A stretch of 64,000 nt of DNA, from positions 1,860,001-1,924,000 of the forward strand of contig NZ_CP032101.1 of assembly GCF_003544855.1 (NCBI RefSeq), written 5' to 3'. The DNA comes from Malaciobacter marinus (GTDB lineage Bacteria; Campylobacterota; Campylobacteria; Campylobacterales; Arcobacteraceae). The notes beneath the pieces are model-generated. The model was given only the letters and a program-made list of their open reading frames with translations, ran no database searches and was not told the DNA's origin. This document shows, piece by piece, positions 20,171 through 27,669 of this stretch. Made by a program: the position numbers and the translations under genes. Every line of letters starts with the position of its first letter. Position 1 is the first letter of the stretch.

Positions 20171-21467
20171 TAGATTATTAAAAAAACTATCAATTATTGC
20201 TTCTTTTAGCCTAGTTGTTTCATCAAGTTTTGCAAATGATTTAAACCTTGAAGATTTAATAATAATTGCTTTAAAAAACAATACAAATATTGAATTATCA
20301 AAAGAACAATCAAATATAAAAAAAGAGCAAATAAACAAAGCTACTTCAACTTATTTACCAAACTTATCACTAAATGCTTCAACAGCAAGGAAAGATATAG
20401 AACAACAAGGAAATAAAATAGATGATGATGTGAATAGTGTGGCAGTTAATGCAAATCAATTAATCTATGATTTTGGAAAAACTACAAGTAACATTGACTC
20501 ATCAAAATATAGTTATGATGAATCAAAAAGTGATGTAAAAGCAACTATTTCAAAAACTATTTTTCAAGTTACCTCTACATATTATGATATTTTAAATAAG
20601 TATCAACAAATAGAAGTTGCAAAAGAGTCTGTAAAACTTGATGAGCTACAATTAAATCAAGCAAATGAGTACTTTAAAGCAGGTGTTAGAACAAAAATTG
20701 ATGTAACAAATGCAAAGCTTAGATTATCAAACTCAAAATTAAAACTTATACAAGCAAAGTACAATTTAAAAACAACAGAAACAAAACTTGTATCACTTTT
20801 AGGTAAAGATTTAGGAAGTAGCATAAATATCAAATTTCACAACAAAGATATCACAACACTTGTAAGAAATACAGAATATAAAAACTACTCTTTAGAAAAA
20901 CTAATAACATTAGGCTTAGAAAAAAGAGATGAAATAAAAAAATACAAAGCAAAAATCCAAACAGCAAAAGAACAAAAAAATGTAGCAAGTGCTGATTATC
21001 TTCCAAGAATAGATGTAGATGCTTCATATACAAATAGCCAATCAGATAAAATAGCAACACAAGATATAGAACAATCATCAGTTGCATTAAATCTAAAATG
21101 GAACTTCTTTACAGGTCTTTCAACAGTTGCAGATAATAAAATAGCCCTTTCAAATTTAAGTAGCGCAAAAAAACAACTTCAACAACAAATCCTTGATATA
21201 AAACAAGAAGTGACATCTGCTTATTTAAATGTAAAAGAGAGCATTGATAGTTTAAATATTGGACTTTTAAATGTAAAACTAGCAACAGAAAATCTAAGCT
21301 TAGCTGATGAAAGATATAAAGCAGGATTAAATGACTTAATTGAGTTAAATGATGCAAAACTTGAATACACACAAGCAAAAAGTTCACTTGTAAATATCTA
21401 CTATGCATACTTAACAAACTTGGCAAACTTAAACTATACAATTGGAACTATACATGAAAAAATATAG
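20163..21467 (+). CDS. TolC-family outer membrane efflux protein
   Basis: The 434-aa protein has a cleavable signal peptide (to about residue 25, 'VSSSFANDL') and two repeats of the long helical coiled-coil and strand pattern of TolC ('LIYDFGKTTSNIDSSKYSYDE' region and 'FFTGLSTVADNKIALSNL' region). It forms the outer membrane channel for the upstream RND pump. AAGGA precedes the ATG. Its end overlaps the start of the phospholipase gene. Confidence 0.92.
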   Translation: MNNRLLKKLSIIASFSLVVSSSFANDLNLEDLIIIALKNNTNIELSKEQSNIKKEQINKATSTYLPNLSLNASTARKDIEQQGNKIDDDVNSVAVNANQLIYDFGKTTSNIDSSKYSYDESKSDVKATISKTIFQVTSTYYDILNKYQQIEVAKESVKLDELQLNQANEYFKAGVRTKIDVTNAKLRLSNSKLKLIQAKYNLKTTETKLVSLLGKDLGSSINIKFHNKDITTLVRNTEYKNYSLEKLITLGLEKRDEIKKYKAKIQTAKEQKNVASADYLPRIDVDASYTNSQSDKIATQDIEQSSVALNLKWNFFTGLSTVADNKIALSNLSSAKKQLQQQILDIKQEVTSAYLNVKESIDSLNIGLLNVKLATENLSLADERYKAGLNDLIELNDAKLEYTQAKSSLVNIYYAYLTNLANLNYTIGTIHEKI

Positions 21468-22497
21468 TTTTTTTGTAATTACATTTTTTGTAACTACACT
21501 TTATGGCAATAACATACAAGAACTTTATAAAAAAGCTTCTATTTATGAAAAAAATGGTGAGTTTAAAAAAGCTATGCAAATCTATAAACAACTTGCAAAA
21601 AAGAATTTAAAAGATGAAAATTCAAACACTGAAAAAACTTCATTAGAAGAAACATTGGTGAAAAAAGAGCTTTTACAAAAAGAAGAAAAATTCAAAGCTT
21701 TAAGAGGTAATTTTTTCAAAAGAAATATTGATAAGATAAAGGATAAAGAGACAGCAAATACAATAGAACAGTTGATTGTCAAAGACTTTGGTCTATATAC
21801 ATATAAAACAAACTATCTACTTCCTGTAACTTATGATACAAAAAATAAAGATGGAAGAAATCAATATGAAACAAAATTTCAATTAAGTTTTGAAAAACCA
21901 CTAACTTATAATATATTTGGTTTAGATGAAACACTATCTTTTGCATATACACAAAAATCTTATTGGCAAACCTCAAGAGAATCTGCACCCTTTAGAGAAT
22001 CAAACTATCAACCAGAAGTATTTTTAACATTTCCCTATAAAGAAGAAAACTCATCTTTAAAAGCATATAAAATATCTTTACTTCATGAATCAAATGGGCA
22101 AGATGGTGAAAAATCAAGGTCATGGAATAGATTGTATTTAGAGAGTTTCTTTCAGTTTTCCAATCTCTTTGTAATTCCAAGAGTTTGGTATAGAATACCA
22201 GAACAAGAAAGAAATGATGACAATAAAGATATTCAAAAATATCTAGGATATGGAGATTTAACCCTATTTTTTCCATACAAAAAACACACATTTGAATTAA
22301 AACTAAGAAACAACCTAAGACTTAGTGAAGATAATAAAGGCGCAGTAGAGTTCAACTGGACTTTCCCACTACCAAGCTTTTTAAATCTACCAAATAGCTT
22401 TGGATACTTTCAAGTATTTAGTGGATACGCAGATAGCTTGATTGATTATGATGAAGATATAAATAAAATAGGTATAGGTATCGCCTTTTCAAGATAG
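21454..22497 (+). CDS. pldA: Outer membrane phospholipase A
   Basis: A 347-aa OMPLA homologue. The barrel begins with 'LSFAYTQKSYWQTS', and the catalytic region reads 'LLHESNGQDGEKSRSWNRLY', in which His and Ser of 'HESNG' correspond to H142 and S144 of E. coli PldA, with the N156 counterpart in 'SWNRLY'. A signal peptide (MKKYSFFVITFF..) is followed by about 90 residues of helical, TPR-like and lysine-rich sequence absent from E. coli OMPLA. I chose ATG 21454 rather than TTG 21442 because it gives a normal signal peptide and has GGAA upstream. It overlaps tolC, so it is the last gene of the efflux operon. Confidence 0.88.
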   Translation: MKKYSFFVITFFVTTLYGNNIQELYKKASIYEKNGEFKKAMQIYKQLAKKNLKDENSNTEKTSLEETLVKKELLQKEEKFKALRGNFFKRNIDKIKDKETANTIEQLIVKDFGLYTYKTNYLLPVTYDTKNKDGRNQYETKFQLSFEKPLTYNIFGLDETLSFAYTQKSYWQTSRESAPFRESNYQPEVFLTFPYKEENSSLKAYKISLLHESNGQDGEKSRSWNRLYLESFFQFSNLFVIPRVWYRIPEQERNDDNKDIQKYLGYGDLTLFFPYKKHTFELKLRNNLRLSEDNKGAVEFNWTFPLPSFLNLPNSFGYFQVFSGYADSLIDYDEDINKIGIGIAFSR

Positions 22498-22506
22498 GTT
22501 TTAAGA

Positions 22507-22527
22507 GGGTCAGGTGATAACGATAAC
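22507..22527 (+). repeat. REP-like end, copy 1
   Basis: Left end of the RAYT unit, 21 bases starting GGGTCAGGTGATAAC and ending GATAAC. Identical to the reverse complements at 23405, 24423 and 24793. Confidence 0.85.
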
Positions 22528-22531
22528 TTTA

Positions 22532-23299
22532 TCAACTACTTCTCTTAATTATTTTATTGACTGCGGGTTGAGATATACCAATTATTTTAGCAATTATATA
22601 TTGGGAATACCCTTGCTCATATGCTTTTACTATATATTTATTTCTTGTTTGCTTATCTTTAATTCCGTCAAAAAATTTTATTAATTTGCCTCTATTGACT
22701 TTTTTATCAATATCTGGTGCATCTACTAAACTTGAAGCTTTTATTAATTCTTTTAAATCTGCACTATCTATTTCTAAAGTAAAAAAGTCTTTTATCTCTT
22801 TAATATTTTTTCCATATGTTTTTATTATCCATGAATTTTGCAAACATACAGGAACTTTTTCTTCTTTATAAAAATAGTAACTTGAACTATATGGATAATA
22901 TTCTATTTTTTCAACTATTTTTGCTTTTAATGGGTTTTGTTCAATATATCTCATCAGGATATAAAGGTAAGCTTCATTTGCCACATACCATGATTTAAAT
23001 CTTCCTTGCCACAAATGCCCACTTCTTTTATACTTTTTATTAAAGTATATTGCATATATAGAATTTAGATATCTCATGAATTTTGAAAGGTTTCCTTCTT
23101 TTACTTCAATAAGTAGATGGTAATGATTATTCATTAGACAGTAGTTATGCAAAGTTATATTAAACTTTTCGCAACAATCTGATAATAAACTTAGAAAATA
23201 TTCAAAGTCATCTTTATCATAAAAAACAACTCTTCTTTCTACTCCTCTATTTACTATATGATAATATCCTGATATTTCTATTCTAGGTCTTCTTGCCAT
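22532..23299 (-). CDS. REP-associated tyrosine transposase (RAYT, Y1/HUH family)
   Basis: A 255-aa IS200-like single-strand transposase. The N-terminus 'MARRPRIEISGYYHIVNRG' and the HUH motif in 'CLMNNHYHLLIEV' (about 56-68) are standard, and the catalytic Tyr is expected in 'ILMRYIEQNPLKAKIV' (about 115-130). The C-terminus carries a helix-turn-helix ('GYSQYIIAKIIGISQPAVNK'). I chose ATG 23299 because GAGGT is correctly spaced from it; GTG 23305 is too close. RAYTs are thought to mobilise REP sequences; the flanking 21-bp repeats are the likely substrate. Confidence 0.9.
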   Translation of the reverse strand: MARRPRIEISGYYHIVNRGVERRVVFYDKDDFEYFLSLLSDCCEKFNITLHNYCLMNNHYHLLIEVKEGNLSKFMRYLNSIYAIYFNKKYKRSGHLWQGRFKSWYVANEAYLYILMRYIEQNPLKAKIVEKIEYYPYSSSYYFYKEEKVPVCLQNSWIIKTYGKNIKEIKDFFTLEIDSADLKELIKASSLVDAPDIDKKVNRGKLIKFFDGIKDKQTRNKYIVKAYEQGYSQYIIAKIIGISQPAVNKIIKRSS

Positions 23300-23404
23300 A
23301 CTCACACCTCTTACAATAAGATAAGAGTATTTTAACCCAATTATTTCTTTATAATTAAATTAATTACATTTTGCAATATTATTAATAACTCTTTTAGTTA
23401 TCTA

Positions 23405-23425
23405 GTTATCGTTATCACCTGACCC
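23405..23425 (-). repeat. REP-like end, copy 2
   Basis: Right end of the RAYT unit, inverted relative to copy 1 and identical to it. It is preceded by a further GTTATC (23397-23402), so the box is partly triplicated here. Confidence 0.85.
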
Positions 23426-23511
23426 TTATTTTCTTATTTTTAGAGGACTTAGTAAATCAACATATTATTATTATGATATAATTTATATAATTATAATATT
23501 GAGGAGATTAT

Positions 23512-24168
23512 ATGAAAAATAAAATTATTTTGTTTGTGTTAGGTTTTAGTTTAACAGCATCCCTTTATGCAAAAGATTCTGGGTTCTACATAGGTGGTTT
23601 GATTGGTAAATCTAAAACAAAAGATTATGGAAAAGAGACTTTTACTGCTACAAATATAGATAGTGGTTATAGCCAAAGCATTGAGGAAATTGATTTGATT
23701 TATGGTGGATTACTTGGATATGATCATTATTTTGATAATTTCTTAATTGGATTAGAATTTGATGGTTATAAAGTTGATTCAGATGAAAAAAGAGATATTC
23801 AAGCAGGAGGTGCAAATCCTTGGCACTACACATCAGAAATTAATAAAGTTACTTCTTTAAAGTTACGGCTGGGGTATTTAATAAATGAAGAAAATTTATT
23901 TTATATTTCTATTGGTAAAGCAAAAGCAGATATCACAAGAAAAATGTATAATACTAATGGTACAACATTACTCAAAGAATTAAATGACAATGTAGATGGA
24001 AATTTATATGGTCTTGGTCTTGAACATTTTCTAGAGAATAATCTTTCAATTCAAATAGATTTTAGATACATAAAGTATGATGAGGTATCATTTATAGTGG
24101 AAGATAAAACAGAATATGAAGATTTAACTGAAAAAGCTTTCACTTTGTCTTTTAAGTATAAATTCTAA
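23512..24168 (+). CDS. Outer membrane beta-barrel protein (OmpA/opacity-like)
   Basis: The 218-aa product has a signal peptide ('MKNKIILFVLGFSLTASLYA') and then alternating strands typical of an eight-stranded barrel: 'SGFYIGGLIGKS', 'DLIYGGLLGYDHYF', 'KLRLGYLINEENLFY', ending in 'KAFTLSFKYKF' with the usual terminal Phe. No periplasmic domain follows. Function is unknown, perhaps a small porin or surface protein. It lies alone between the RAYT unit and the first short element. GAGGAG precedes the ATG. Confidence 0.8.
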   Translation: MKNKIILFVLGFSLTASLYAKDSGFYIGGLIGKSKTKDYGKETFTATNIDSGYSQSIEEIDLIYGGLLGYDHYFDNFLIGLEFDGYKVDSDEKRDIQAGGANPWHYTSEINKVTSLKLRLGYLINEENLFYISIGKAKADITRKMYNTNGTTLLKELNDNVDGNLYGLGLEHFLENNLSIQIDFRYIKYDEVSFIVEDKTEYEDLTEKAFTLSFKYKF

Positions 24169-24199
24169 TTTATAGAATTACTTTTTATATTGCTTAGTT

Positions 24200-24231
24200 A
24201 AGATAAATATTATTTACATAATATTTATCTT
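24200..24231 (+). terminator. Hairpin after the outer membrane protein gene
   Basis: AAGATAAATATTAT pairs perfectly with ATAATATTTATCTT (14 bp, loop TTAC) 32 bases after the stop. The trailing sequence is only moderately T-rich. Confidence 0.6.
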
Positions 24232-24259
24232 TGCAATAGATGCAATAGATGGAATTTAA

Positions 24260-24443
24260 GAGTCAGAATTTAAGTAACAATAACCCTAAACCTAATTTGG
24301 CAACTGAGCCCTATTCCCAAATGATTATAGCAAGAGTATTATTTTAAGAAACTTTCTTATTAATAATTACCTTAATTATATTTTATAACGCTATTATAAA
24401 AAAATTTCTCTTCTACATTTTAGTTATCGTTATCACCTGACCC
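24260..24443. mobile_element. MITE-like short element A
   Basis: A non-coding unit related to element B. The right end (24423-24443) is an exact copy of the RAYT-unit end. The left end is decayed (AGTCAG..GTAACAATAAC). By hand alignment A and B differ at about 13 bases and one single-base gap over some 165 bases. The right ~110 bases also resemble the leader of the RAYT gene. Confidence 0.7.
24423..24443 (-). repeat. REP-like end, copy 3
   Basis: Right end of short element A, identical to the RAYT-unit ends and in the same orientation as copy 2. Confidence 0.85.
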
Positions 24444-24634
24444 TAATTTTTATTATAATAGAAATTATATATTTTAATTTTAATTTCCTAAATAAAAATC
24501 TCATCTACTTTAACCTTGTTAATTTATCTGTCGTTATATTATTTGTCATTCTCATCTTCCCTCATAAGTTATTAAAAAGTCACAATAAAGATAATTATAT
24601 ATTTGATAACAATTATCAAAGTAAAAAAGTAAAA

Positions 24635-24655
24635 GGGTCAGGTGATAACAATAAC
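24635..24655 (+). repeat. REP-like end, copy 4
   Basis: Left end of short element B; differs from the other copies only at base 16 (A for G). Confidence 0.85.
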
Positions 24656-24792
24656 CCTAAACCTAATTTGGCAACTGAGCCCTATTTTCAAATAATTATA
24701 GCAAGAGTATTATTTTAATGAACTTTCTTATTAATAATTATCTTGATTATATTTTGTAATGCTATTATAAAAAATTTCTATTCTACTTTCAA

Positions 24793-24813
24793 GTTATCGT
24801 TATCACCTGACCC
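24793..24813 (-). repeat. REP-like end, copy 5
   Basis: Right end of short element B, identical to copies 1 to 3. Confidence 0.85.
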
Positions 24814-24823
24814 TAATTTTCCA

Positions 24824-25480
24824 TCACTCATTTTCTTCTCCTTGTTCAGATGGAAGCATTAAAAATCCTTTTTCTAAATTTTTTATATTAAAATATTTAG
24901 AAAAATACTCTTCAATAAATTTCTTCTCTTCATTATTTAAAAATCCATATGAAAGATTAATTAACTTTTCATCATTAAATACAACTACTAATGAATATTG
25001 ATTTGCTAAAAACCTTTTTGAATATATCATTGTTCCTATCCATTTTGTTATAACTAAAAACATAATAAAAATTTGTCCTGGTATTGCTATTATTAAAAAA
25101 ATAACTTTAAAAGGATTCCAATATGCCGTTTTATCTGTTGCAATTTGCCAAAAAACATTATAAGCATTTTTAAAGTTATCTAAATCTCTTATCTCATTTG
25201 TTTTTGTCCTTTTTATTCTATTTTGATAAAATATTATTTTATAGTTTTTAGATACAAAAGCTAAATAAGAGATACTCAATCCTCTTAAAATCAAATAAGC
25301 AAATACAAACTGTCCAAATGGAGTTAAACTTGAATATGCTTCATGAATTGATCCATTATATATACATATAACAATAGCTGAAAATATCCCCACACTAAAA
25401 AGTCCTAATTCTGTAAAAATATAACTATAGTCAAGTATTTCAAAAACTACTTCATCTTTATTATCTATTGCTTTTTCCAT
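24824..25480 (-). CDS. Unrecognised 218-aa membrane protein
   Basis: Family not recognised. Helices are likely at about 22-45 ('GLFSVGIFSAIVICIYN'), 50-75 ('GQFVFAYLILRGLSISYLAF') and 124-150 ('VIFLIIAIPGQIFIMFLVI'); the C-terminal ~60 residues look soluble ('YSLVVVFNDEKLINLSYGFL'). It follows the 137-aa gene with no gap and is probably cotranscribed. Short element B ends ten bases beyond its stop codon. Confidence 0.6.
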   Translation of the reverse strand: MEKAIDNKDEVVFEILDYSYIFTELGLFSVGIFSAIVICIYNGSIHEAYSSLTPFGQFVFAYLILRGLSISYLAFVSKNYKIIFYQNRIKRTKTNEIRDLDNFKNAYNVFWQIATDKTAYWNPFKVIFLIIAIPGQIFIMFLVITKWIGTMIYSKRFLANQYSLVVVFNDEKLINLSYGFLNNEEKKFIEEYFSKYFNIKNLEKGFLMLPSEQGEENE

Positions 25481-25894
25481 TTATGCAACTCTCCGTTCAA
25501 TTCTTTCATAAAATCTATTATTAAGTATTTTATTTTTTTCTAATTCAAGGCTTGAAGATAAAATCTTGTGGGAGCTTAATAAACTAAGTGAGTAAAGATT
25601 TTCTCTTTGTAATAAAGAAGTTGGACAAAAAAGAGTACTTAATAATAGATTTTCATCTGTATTTGTAAAAGCAACATTCATAGAATCATTTGAATTTTTC
25701 TCATAATATGCTTGATTTTTATTTCCATCATTTGTAGTAAAGTGTGTTATATCATAATATCCGTCTTGGATATCTGATTCTTTTGATGCAAGTAAAGCAA
25801 TGTTTGTATTTAAATCTACTGTATCAATATCTATTAAGTTAAATATCAAACTCATATAATCAATTTTAATTTTATCTTTTAATTCTCTTATCAT
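25481..25894 (-). CDS. Unrecognised 137-aa protein
   Basis: Family not recognised. The product is soluble and polar, with no signal peptide; 'HFTTNDGNKNQAYYEKN' in the middle is Asn-rich. It directly abuts the membrane protein gene downstream, which suggests one functional unit. The ATG is preceded by GAAG rather than a strong ribosome binding site. Existence as a gene is supported mainly by the length of the frame and the abutting partner. Confidence 0.5.
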   Translation of the reverse strand: MIRELKDKIKIDYMSLIFNLIDIDTVDLNTNIALLASKESDIQDGYYDITHFTTNDGNKNQAYYEKNSNDSMNVAFTNTDENLLLSTLFCPTSLLQRENLYSLSLLSSHKILSSSLELEKNKILNNRFYERIERRVA

Positions 25895-26217
25895 CTTACT
25901 TCTTTTACATAAACTCTACTAAAACCTAACCTTCCCACAAATCATCTATTAGAAAAAATAATTCTATAAGATAAACTCTTTTATTATTCATTATAAATAA
26001 TAATTTTATAAGAAATCTGAATTTTTATATAAAATTAAAGTGTTTTTTGTCTTTAAGTAGTCTTAATTTTACTCTAAATTAGATTTATTTTTTAAGTTTT
26101 ATTTCAAAAGTAACAGTTTAATCTAAAATTATTTTCTATACAAATATATTTTTACTAGAAGCAATTTATACTTATTTTAATATAATGCATAAAATAAAAT
26201 AACCAAGAAAGAGAATA
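25895..26217. other. 323-bp spacer between divergent genes
   Basis: Contains the pncB -10 box TATAAT (26181-26186) near its right end. Otherwise very AT-rich, with no open frame, RNA-like fold or repeat that I can support. Confidence 0.6.
26181..26186 (+). promoter_or_regulatory. -10 box of pncB
   Basis: TATAAT 31 bases before the ATG, leaving room for a short leader with GAAAGAGA. Confidence 0.5.
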
Positions 26218-27669
26218 ATGAATAACAAAAATGAAACAATGTTAATAGATTTTTATGAGTTTACAATGGCAAATGGGTATTTTAATTCAGAACTAAAAGA
26301 TAAAATTGTCTATTTTGATTTATCCTTTAGAAGAGTACCTGACAATGGTGGTTATGCTATATTTGCAGGACTTGAAAGTATTATAAATTATATTGAGAAT
26401 ATAAAATTTTCACAAGAGGATTTAGAGTATTTAAAAAGCTACAATCTTTTTAGTGATGAATTTATCAACTACTTAGAAGATTTTAAATTTACAGGAGATA
26501 TTTATAGTGTAAAAGAAGGTACTGTAATTTTTCCAAATGAACCTGTTTTAACTGTACGGGCAAATATTGTCCAAGCACAAATATTAGAGACTTTTTTACT
26601 TCTTAGCTTTAATCACCAATCTTTAATTGCAACAAAGGCTAGTAGAATTAAAAATGCAGCAAAAGGTAGAACTGTACTAGAGATGGGAGCAAGAAGAGCC
26701 CATGGAATTAGTAGTGCAAATAGTGGCTCAAGGGCAGCATATATTGCAGGGATTGATGCTACAAGTAATACTTTGGCTAGTTGTTTATATGGTATTCCAT
26801 GTAGTGGAACTATGGCTCACTCTTGGATTCAAATGTTTGAAAGTGAAGAAGAAGCTTTTAGAGTTTATGCTAAAACTTATCCAAATAATACAACTTTACT
26901 AGTTGACACATATGATACTTTAAGAAGTGGAATACCAAATGCAATAAAAGTAATCAAAGAGGAGTTATTGCCAAAGGGTATCAAAGATTTTGCAGTTCGT
27001 ATAGACTCAGGAGATTTAACATACTTATCAAAAGAGTCAAGAAAAATGCTAGATGAAGCAGGACTTGAAAACTGTAAGATTGTTGTAAGTAATGCACTTG
27101 ATGAGATTTTAATTGAAACATTACTAAATCAAGGTGCTCCAATAGATATCTTTGGAGTAGGAGAAAGACTTGTAACAGCAAAAAGCAATCCAGTTTTTGG
27201 AGGTGTTTATAAACTTGCTGCAATAGAAGAGAATGAAAAGATTATTCCTAAAATAAAAATAAGTGATAATCCAGTAAAAATAACAACTCCACACTTTAAA
27301 AAACTATATAGAATCTATGACAAAGAAACAAACAAAGCAAAAGCTGATTTAATTACTGTGCATGATGAAGTATATGATGAAAAAGAGCCATTGACTATTT
27401 TTGATCCTGTGCATACTTGGAAAACAAAAACTTTTGAAAACTATATTTTAAAAGATTTAAAACTACCTATTTATAAAAATGGAGAGTTAGTATATAAAAT
27501 ACCTTCAATAGAAGAAATAAAAGAACATACAAAAAATGAGTTAAATCACTTATGGGATGAGATGTTAAGATTTGAGAATCCTCACAAATATTATGTTGAT
27601 TTATCCCAAAAACTTTGGACGACAAAGTTAAACTTACTAAAAAAAATAAAACAAAGCTCTTCTAACTAG
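26218..27669 (+). CDS. pncB: Nicotinate phosphoribosyltransferase
   Basis: Makes nicotinate mononucleotide from nicotinate and PRPP for NAD salvage. The 483-aa protein has 'LIDFYEFTMANGYF' at 9-22, 'GARRAHGISSANSGSRAAYI' near 157-176, a substrate/phosphate region 'GTMAHSWIQMF' near 197-207 and 'VRIDSGDLTYLS' near 260. It is monocistronic, and its stop overlaps the stop of the convergent DUF2062 gene within a hairpin. Confidence 0.93.
   Translation: MNNKNETMLIDFYEFTMANGYFNSELKDKIVYFDLSFRRVPDNGGYAIFAGLESIINYIENIKFSQEDLEYLKSYNLFSDEFINYLEDFKFTGDIYSVKEGTVIFPNEPVLTVRANIVQAQILETFLLLSFNHQSLIATKASRIKNAAKGRTVLEMGARRAHGISSANSGSRAAYIAGIDATSNTLASCLYGIPCSGTMAHSWIQMFESEEEAFRVYAKTYPNNTTLLVDTYDTLRSGIPNAIKVIKEELLPKGIKDFAVRIDSGDLTYLSKESRKMLDEAGLENCKIVVSNALDEILIETLLNQGAPIDIFGVGERLVTAKSNPVFGGVYKLAAIEENEKIIPKIKISDNPVKITTPHFKKLYRIYDKETNKAKADLITVHDEVYDEKEPLTIFDPVHTWKTKTFENYILKDLKLPIYKNGELVYKIPSIEEIKEHTKNELNHLWDEMLRFENPHKYYVDLSQKLWTTKLNLLKKIKQSSSN

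Follow-up and report, generated by a model that had tools for sequence, protein, structure and literature searches.

The locus examined here raises a simple question: does a RAYT-type transposase gene of Malaciobacter marinus form one unit with the inverted repeats that frame it and, if so, how would such a unit use its ends? The window, by which we mean the whole stretch of 64,000 nucleotides that was analysed (contig NZ_CP032101.1, positions 1,860,001 to 1,924,000), had been described in an earlier note as carrying such a gene between perfect inverted 21-mers, an arrangement presented there as unexpected, together with a C-terminal helix-turn-helix of the enzyme that could read the ends. Neither is new. 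Di Nocera in 2013 named RAYT-like genes with terminal inverted repeats (TIRs) TIRYT and their structures TIRtrons; in the available excerpts of that account, the TIRs are long, carry a GGGGWSAS-type motif, and belong to families found as single, dimeric, and grouped copies (PMC3733652). Quentin in 2018 placed 20 of the 26 Di Nocera examples in TnpA-Y1 subclass 2.1, for which the available excerpts give the motifs NH[YF]H, WQ, and Y---NP, a C-terminal HTH-like extension, no REPs nearby, a prevalence in epsilon, beta, and delta proteobacteria, and equivalence with Bertels group 1 in Table 1; that this subclass and the TIRYTs are the same needs, according to the same source, further analyses for confirmation (PMC6006769). 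Our literature search found the term TIRYT in these two papers only, and the word Arcobacter is absent from the text of the first. The chemistry of TnpA-REP, as excerpted from PMC8266576, comprises single-strand cleavage, a tyrosine-5′-phosphate link, and strand transfer, the biochemical work described there being concerned with groups 2 and 3.

The unit and its inverted ends

The gene is framed by an inverted repeat of 23 nt without mismatch, 22506-22528 and 23404-23426, whose arms are separated by 875 nt; the description in the earlier note is thereby borne out, with a repeat slightly longer than the 21-mers reported and coordinates right within a base or two. This is the longest perfect inverted pair of the window among those with arms at most 1.5 kb apart, the longest found in 40 order-3 Markov sequences of window length being 19 nt. 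Only 3 bases lie between the stop codon (22532-22534) and the 3′-side repeat, which ends at 22528; at the other extremity of the gene, we kept the ATG used by relatives as the start, the mechanically called ORF beginning with a GTG at 23305. The ends read AGGGTCAG and match GGGGWSAS at 7 of 8 positions. Features are listed in Table 1.

Table 1. Features of the transposase unit and of the MITE-like copies next to it (window positions)
Feature	Positions	Strand	Basis
Left terminal inverted repeat (gene 3′ side)	22506..22528	+	23-nt perfect partner of 23404-23426; exact 22-mer match
Y1 (HUH) transposase gene, TIRYT / TnpA-Y1 subclass 2.1 type, ~255 aa	22532..23299	-	Pfam Y1_Tnp, motifs, AlphaFold2 model
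Right-end internal region, upstream of gene	23300..23403	-	Partly common to neighbouring MITE-like copies, 75-76% identity
Right terminal inverted repeat (gene 5′ side)	23404..23426	-	Perfect partner of left repeat
Tip ladder, right end: CTTATTTT x2 (AAAATAAG from outward to inward)	23425..23440	-	Sequence
Older MITE-like copy, left end decayed, right end intact at 24422-24443	24262..24444	.	End sites, alignment
MITE-like unit, 181 bp, both ends	24634..24814	.	End sites, alignment, fold

No REP hairpin with a GTAG or GTGG foot was found at the unit ends; two hairpins with arms of at least 7 nt lie within 22440-23500, one inside the gene and the other beyond the right end. The inverted ends take the place of REP hairpins in this unit. 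An Rfam scan of 21000-27000 gave no match at the gathering score. As for a target duplication, the two flanks share no sequence by eye, and an empty site with two clean sides is lacking.

The transposase

The product matches Pfam Y1_Tnp with an E-value of 4.2e-20 and carries the motifs NHYH and YIEQNP; the second HUH histidine and the Y-motif tyrosine (that of YIEQNP in the window) are the same in all 22 proteins that we aligned. Against NCBIfam NF047646 (REP-associated tyrosine transposase), it scores 76.0 bits, under the curated cut-off of 80. Searching the PDB by sequence returned nothing at E ≤ 0.1; searched by its AlphaFold2 model (mean pLDDT 84.0), the protein has TnpA-REP 4ER8 as its best PDB match (E 7e-6), followed by the IS608 and ISDra2 transposases. 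The model shows extra helices at residues 202-253, and residues 222-252 give a weak match to HTH_23 (20.8 bits, the Pfam cut-off being 24.6).

Pfam match, motifs, and 4ER8 fold thus identify a Y1 transposase with the HUH and catalytic-tyrosine motifs of a TIRYT, and the 23-bp perfect repeats are the long TIRs, unrelated to REPs, that characterize TIRtrons. The traits of subclass 2.1 are present as well, motifs and length being judged by alignment against the published table and the C-terminal HTH-like domain by the model helices and the sub-threshold Pfam match. The window unit is a further TIRtron, of a kind already known since 2013. With the TIRtrons excerpted from PMC3733652, it has in common a RAYT-like tyrosine transposase and long TIRs with a GGGGWSAS-type motif, whereas that account, as far as the excerpts go, does not contain the tip ladders, tip breaks, cargo between MITE ends, or codon-keeping MITEs described below. 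All the traits quoted above from the excerpts of PMC6006769 for subclass 2.1 (the three motifs, the HTH-like extension, and no REPs nearby) are common to the window unit, whose ends are studied further here than in that source. The REPtrons with TnpA-REP of E. coli, Stenotrophomonas, and Marinomonas (PMC8266576, in excerpts) resemble it in the Y1 fold (4ER8), in presumed single-strand nicking and rejoining, and in stem-forming ends, but their REPs are short GTAG-tagged hairpins, whereas the ends here are long inverted repeats with no such hairpin found nearby.

A single weak relative turned up among phage records, and none was confirmed among viral contigs. Two relatives (L028 and L029, in G091 and G095) have lost the first HUH histidine and show no inverted repeat above control; these transposases are probably inactive or repurposed.

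Ends and gene across relatives

With at most one mismatch, GGGTCAGGTGATAAC occurs at 49 sites in 15 of the 104 family genomes and at none in the reversed control. Of these sites, 29 are in the four genomes that encode a transposase at least 78% identical, each of which has some, and the other 20 in 11 of the 100 remaining genomes (Fisher p 3e-4, the family being represented by one genome per species and the site counts not being phylogenetically independent). Around the gene itself, a flanking inverted repeat exceeds the 95th percentile of shuffles at 16 of 25 relative loci and, in a second set of 64 loci overlapping the first in part, all 100 shuffles at 40, with a GGGTCA/G-like motif in both arms at 35 of these 40. 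The 24 relatives of the second set without an inverted repeat above all shuffles count against the TIRtron explanation. The sequence GGGGTCAG is present in the TIRs of many relatives, in line with the GGGGWSAS motif known from the TIRs of some TIRYTs. On plasmids, repeats exceed all 200 shuffles at four of the eight loci read.

That the inverted pair arose by chance and has nothing to do with the gene can be rejected, and we give this idea practically no credence: no point in its support was found, the repeat is longer than any in the 40 random sequences, the reversed control is empty in 104 genomes, and repeats recur around relatives.

Other end types exist. L302 4285-7534 (G403) contains a repeated stretch of 1228 bp (99.8% identity) that carries a related transposase, and the end motif of this stretch, GGGGTGTCAGGCACC, which recurs outside in ladder fashion, represents another TIR type; the repeated stretches of G403 and G429 have such other end types and were left out of the copy count.

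Copies of the ends in Malaciobacter marinus

Searching the 2.917 Mb genome for the 22-mer end with up to 3 mismatches gave 7 sites, and none with the reversed pattern. The 21-mers proposed earlier are therefore not random genome-wide, neither here nor in the family. Five of the seven fall inside 2.3 kb (the two of the unit, the two of the 181-bp unit, and one of the older copy), and the others are right ends at ~1757.5 kb and ~2150.0 kb of the chromosome; the copies thus come as singles, dimers, or groups, as the TIRs of TIRtrons do. The right end at 1757.4 kb is preceded by a fragment of an antitoxin found in the toxin-antitoxin pair of G078 described below.

Both neighbouring MITE-like copies match about 110 bp of the right end of the unit at 75-76% identity. 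As single-stranded DNA, the 181-bp unit is predicted to pair its ends in one stem (fold z -4.51). Between its left end and the transposase gene there is no homology, and a derivation of this end from the transposase 3′ end thus found no support; the older copy gave one 10-residue transposase match (E 0.005), in the opposite orientation.

Evidence for mobility

The sister species G078 is 92% identical in DNA over the left flank and lacks 22505-26178. Homology ends at 22504, 2 nt outside GGGTC, and restarts at 26179 after 24 bp; as this right edge is not a TIR, the evidence is one-sided. At an E-value of 1e-20 or better, none of five other genomes of the genus has the transposase gene. The search for empty sites suggested in the earlier note yielded no site clean on both sides at the unit, the G078 MITE, the 2150-kb solo end, or the G032 MITE: comparisons gave one-sided breaks or nothing, sister species offering only short matches at the 2150-kb solo end, and the comparison for the G057 solo end being dominated by other repeats. 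The interval between the genes for phospholipase A1 (PLA1) and nicotinate phosphoribosyltransferase (window 22498-26217; Pfam) is a variable spot in the genus: it is almost empty in G078, holds two other ORFs in G079 and longer stretches in G081 and G082, and in G080 its second flank was not found nearby.

Homology breaks at or near tips were seen between M. marinus and G078, twice in the Sulfurovum pair L046/L055, and in paralogous flanks of G032; in the Sulfurovum pair, ~0.54 kb is missing beside a solo end and ~0.1 kb beside a unit.

Shortened copies are also found elsewhere. G078 has a copy of the 181-bp unit at another locus (87%), and in the same genome (C50, L123 3525-4465), left and right MITE ends enclose genes for a ParE-type toxin and a Phd/YefM-type antitoxin; by eye, this MITE adjoins a CRISPR-like array. 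The last transposase codons are kept in 7 of the 14 end copies tested, among them a 122-bp MITE (G060) and a ~174-bp MITE (G032), and since they keep these codons, such copies derive from whole units.

As to whole-unit copies elsewhere, which the earlier note proposed to look for, M. marinus has none, the unit being single-copy, and they were met in G317, where two 861-bp units, 100% identical, lie 3 kb apart in unrelated surroundings. On the 3′ side, identity stops 6 nt outside the GGGTC position; on the other side, it starts right after GGGTC, one copy being devoid of the rest of the tip. An integron integrase ORF (TIGR02249, 362.9 bits, profile 1-279 of 315) is cut short here, its last part being provided by the tip of this copy; the identical units are further accompanied by an IS110-type transposase and by two attC-like repeats of 160 bp (L301 3079-7201). 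Two identical units could also go back to the duplication of a larger segment whose flanks were later lost, but the edges of identity coincide with the unit ends. Because the ends are kept in many relatives and the G317 units are identical, such units appear to move. That gene and ends form one unit, as proposed earlier, is supported by the non-random ends, the absence of the unit at this spot in G078, the MITE-like derivatives, and the identical G317 copies.

One may see in the gene, on the contrary, a resident domesticated transposase, inherited vertically, with repeats conserved as binding or control sites and scattered copies left as old debris. The genus g41 (L274-L295), whose transposase gene has long, well kept inverted repeats in the 14 loci examined, speaks for this: the gene sits at 0.31-0.39 Mb in eight of the nine listed one- or two-contig genomes (a matter of genome position only), and its loci have no ladders by the count given below. 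In g41, the gene is likely inherited vertically and perhaps domesticated. The single copy in M. marinus also favours domestication, but the lack of the gene in the five congeners, the identical G317 units, and the MITEs keeping gene 3′ ends go against it, and we judge it unlikely.

Repeated tips outside the ends

Immediately outside GGGTC, the sequence of many ends is AAATAG, AAATTAG, or close to these, and this tip can be repeated further out, forming what we call a tip ladder. Of 83 sites, we set aside those that have a further site on the same strand no more than 70 nt outside; 79 outermost sites remained, some of them from loci that are nearly identical and hence not independent. At 20 of the 79, the 7 bases of the site's tip are repeated within 60 nt outside, the expectation from the tips of other sites being 2.07 and the highest of 500 shuffles 4. 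In the second set without the loci seen earlier (12 tips repeating earlier loci and 7 arms without GG[GA][TA]C were left out), the tip recurs at 6 of 61, with an expectation of 0.41 and a shuffle maximum of 3, this count having been made after the contexts had been displayed. When split along a line of our own choosing, genus g41 has 0 of 28 tips (14 loci) and the rest 6 of 33, for an expectation of 0.10; one g41 tip (L291) is ladder-like by eye and fails the 7-base count. Also by eye, ladder-like recurrences accompany plasmid-borne relatives in Pseudomonas aeruginosa (ends GGGGACAG) and in Legionella adelaidensis.

In 33 of 36 pairs, the start of the repeat unit lies 5-9 nt outside GGGTC (5 being the minimum by construction); the units extend 1-25 nt into the TIR, where 22 of the 36 end within the first 1-2 nt and 8 at exactly 6 nt. 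Taken together with the breaks in the G032 flanks and the edges of the G317 units, this suggests that the functional tip probably reaches ~6-8 nt past the 21-mer. In L120 and L046, variant TIR bases are common to the ladder copies and the adjacent TIR; the ladder units are therefore copies of that TIR.

As the main alternative for the ladders, one has to consider that both they and the tip-edge breaks could be due to slippage of replication and to ordinary recombination in DNA rich in A, in which case they would say nothing about the enzyme, and the TIRtron would move, if at all, in some other way. Some ladders are indeed 7-8-bp microsatellite-like runs, the flanks are A+T-rich, and control A-rich positions ending in TAG also recur, at 206 of 6602. 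That control rate is 3.1%, however, to be compared with 20 of 79 tips, and slippage accounts poorly for the common start (with the reserve on its 5-nt minimum), the eight stops at exactly 6 nt, and the variant TIR bases carried by the ladder copies of L120 and L046. We regard this explanation as possible, if rather doubtful. No description of tip ladders was found in the accessible TIRYT and RAYT literature by a search that was not aimed at ladders and that covered neither preprints nor most subscription papers.

Genes near the ends

A toxin-antitoxin module is adjacent in four of the eight plasmid loci, two of them homologous; the relatives on plasmids of Rhodospirillum, Iodobacter, and two Skermanella (L230, L232, L235, and L236) lie beside toxin-antitoxin genes of the Doc, HipA, or PemK type. 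In the window, a small ORF at 25481-25894, followed by a membrane-protein-like ORF (24824-25894 region), has a C-terminal part with relatives near TIR sites in G057 and G079. In the former, four TIR sites of the same orientation punctuate a tandem array of genes related to the 25481-25894 ORF (L112 2673-5211); in the latter, a T6SS Tle1-like fragment adjoins a relative of it (L125 1151-3948). The link of TIR sites with toxin-antitoxin and effector-immunity genes is anecdotal.

Proposed mechanism

We think it probable that the window unit is a TIRtron, i.e., a mobile Y1 HUH transposase of the TIRYT kind with its own inverted ends, which acts by tip nicking, works on one end at a time, and gives rise to MITEs. 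In single-stranded DNA, the two ends would pair into a stem, near the foot of which the transposase tyrosine would nick a single strand ~6-8 nt outside GGGTC, as the Y1/HUH fold and the chemistry of TnpA-REP lead us to suppose. The strands would then be rejoined to various partners, often at one end at a time: a ladder would be built when a nick is followed by a short stretch of copying and by rejoining, so that the tip is doubled; a tip joined to a distant point would leave a deletion or an insertion bounded on one side by the tip; strands joined in other ways would produce copies of the unit; and shortened copies would be MITEs, presumably moved in trans. The junction at 22504, only 2 nt outside GGGTC, fits a nick at 6-8 nt less well, and further points count against this explanation: the single copy in M. 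marinus, the failure of the comparisons to show a target duplication or an empty site clean on both sides, the edge at 26179 that is not a TIR, the MITE left end of M. marinus without homology to the transposase gene, and the g41 tips, none of the 28 having a ladder by the count.

A broader proposal, which we put forward tentatively and consider rather improbable as a whole, is that TIR-type Y1 transposases act on single ends by nicking a fixed tip ~6-8 nt outside GGG[TA]C, leaving ladders with a fixed start and a variable end, tip-anchored deletions, and truncated copies, and that small cassettes of toxin-antitoxin and effector-immunity genes may thereby be taken up and rearranged by these units, in a bacterial, Y1-based parallel to the one-ended capture of genes by rolling-circle elements. 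IS91/ISCR elements and Helitrons are one-ended rolling-circle elements with other, larger HUH enzymes. Their resemblance to the units studied here is confined to one-ended events, one fixed edge, and adjacent DNA lost or captured; homology is not claimed.

TIRYTs make up a large and little-studied share of the RAYTs. Concrete predictions on the position of the nick, the strand, and the activity of one end follow from the recurring tip and its ladders, from the junctions of the identical copies, and from the codon-keeping MITEs. If the enzyme does make the ladders, the Y1 activity that each end has undergone can be read from the genome.
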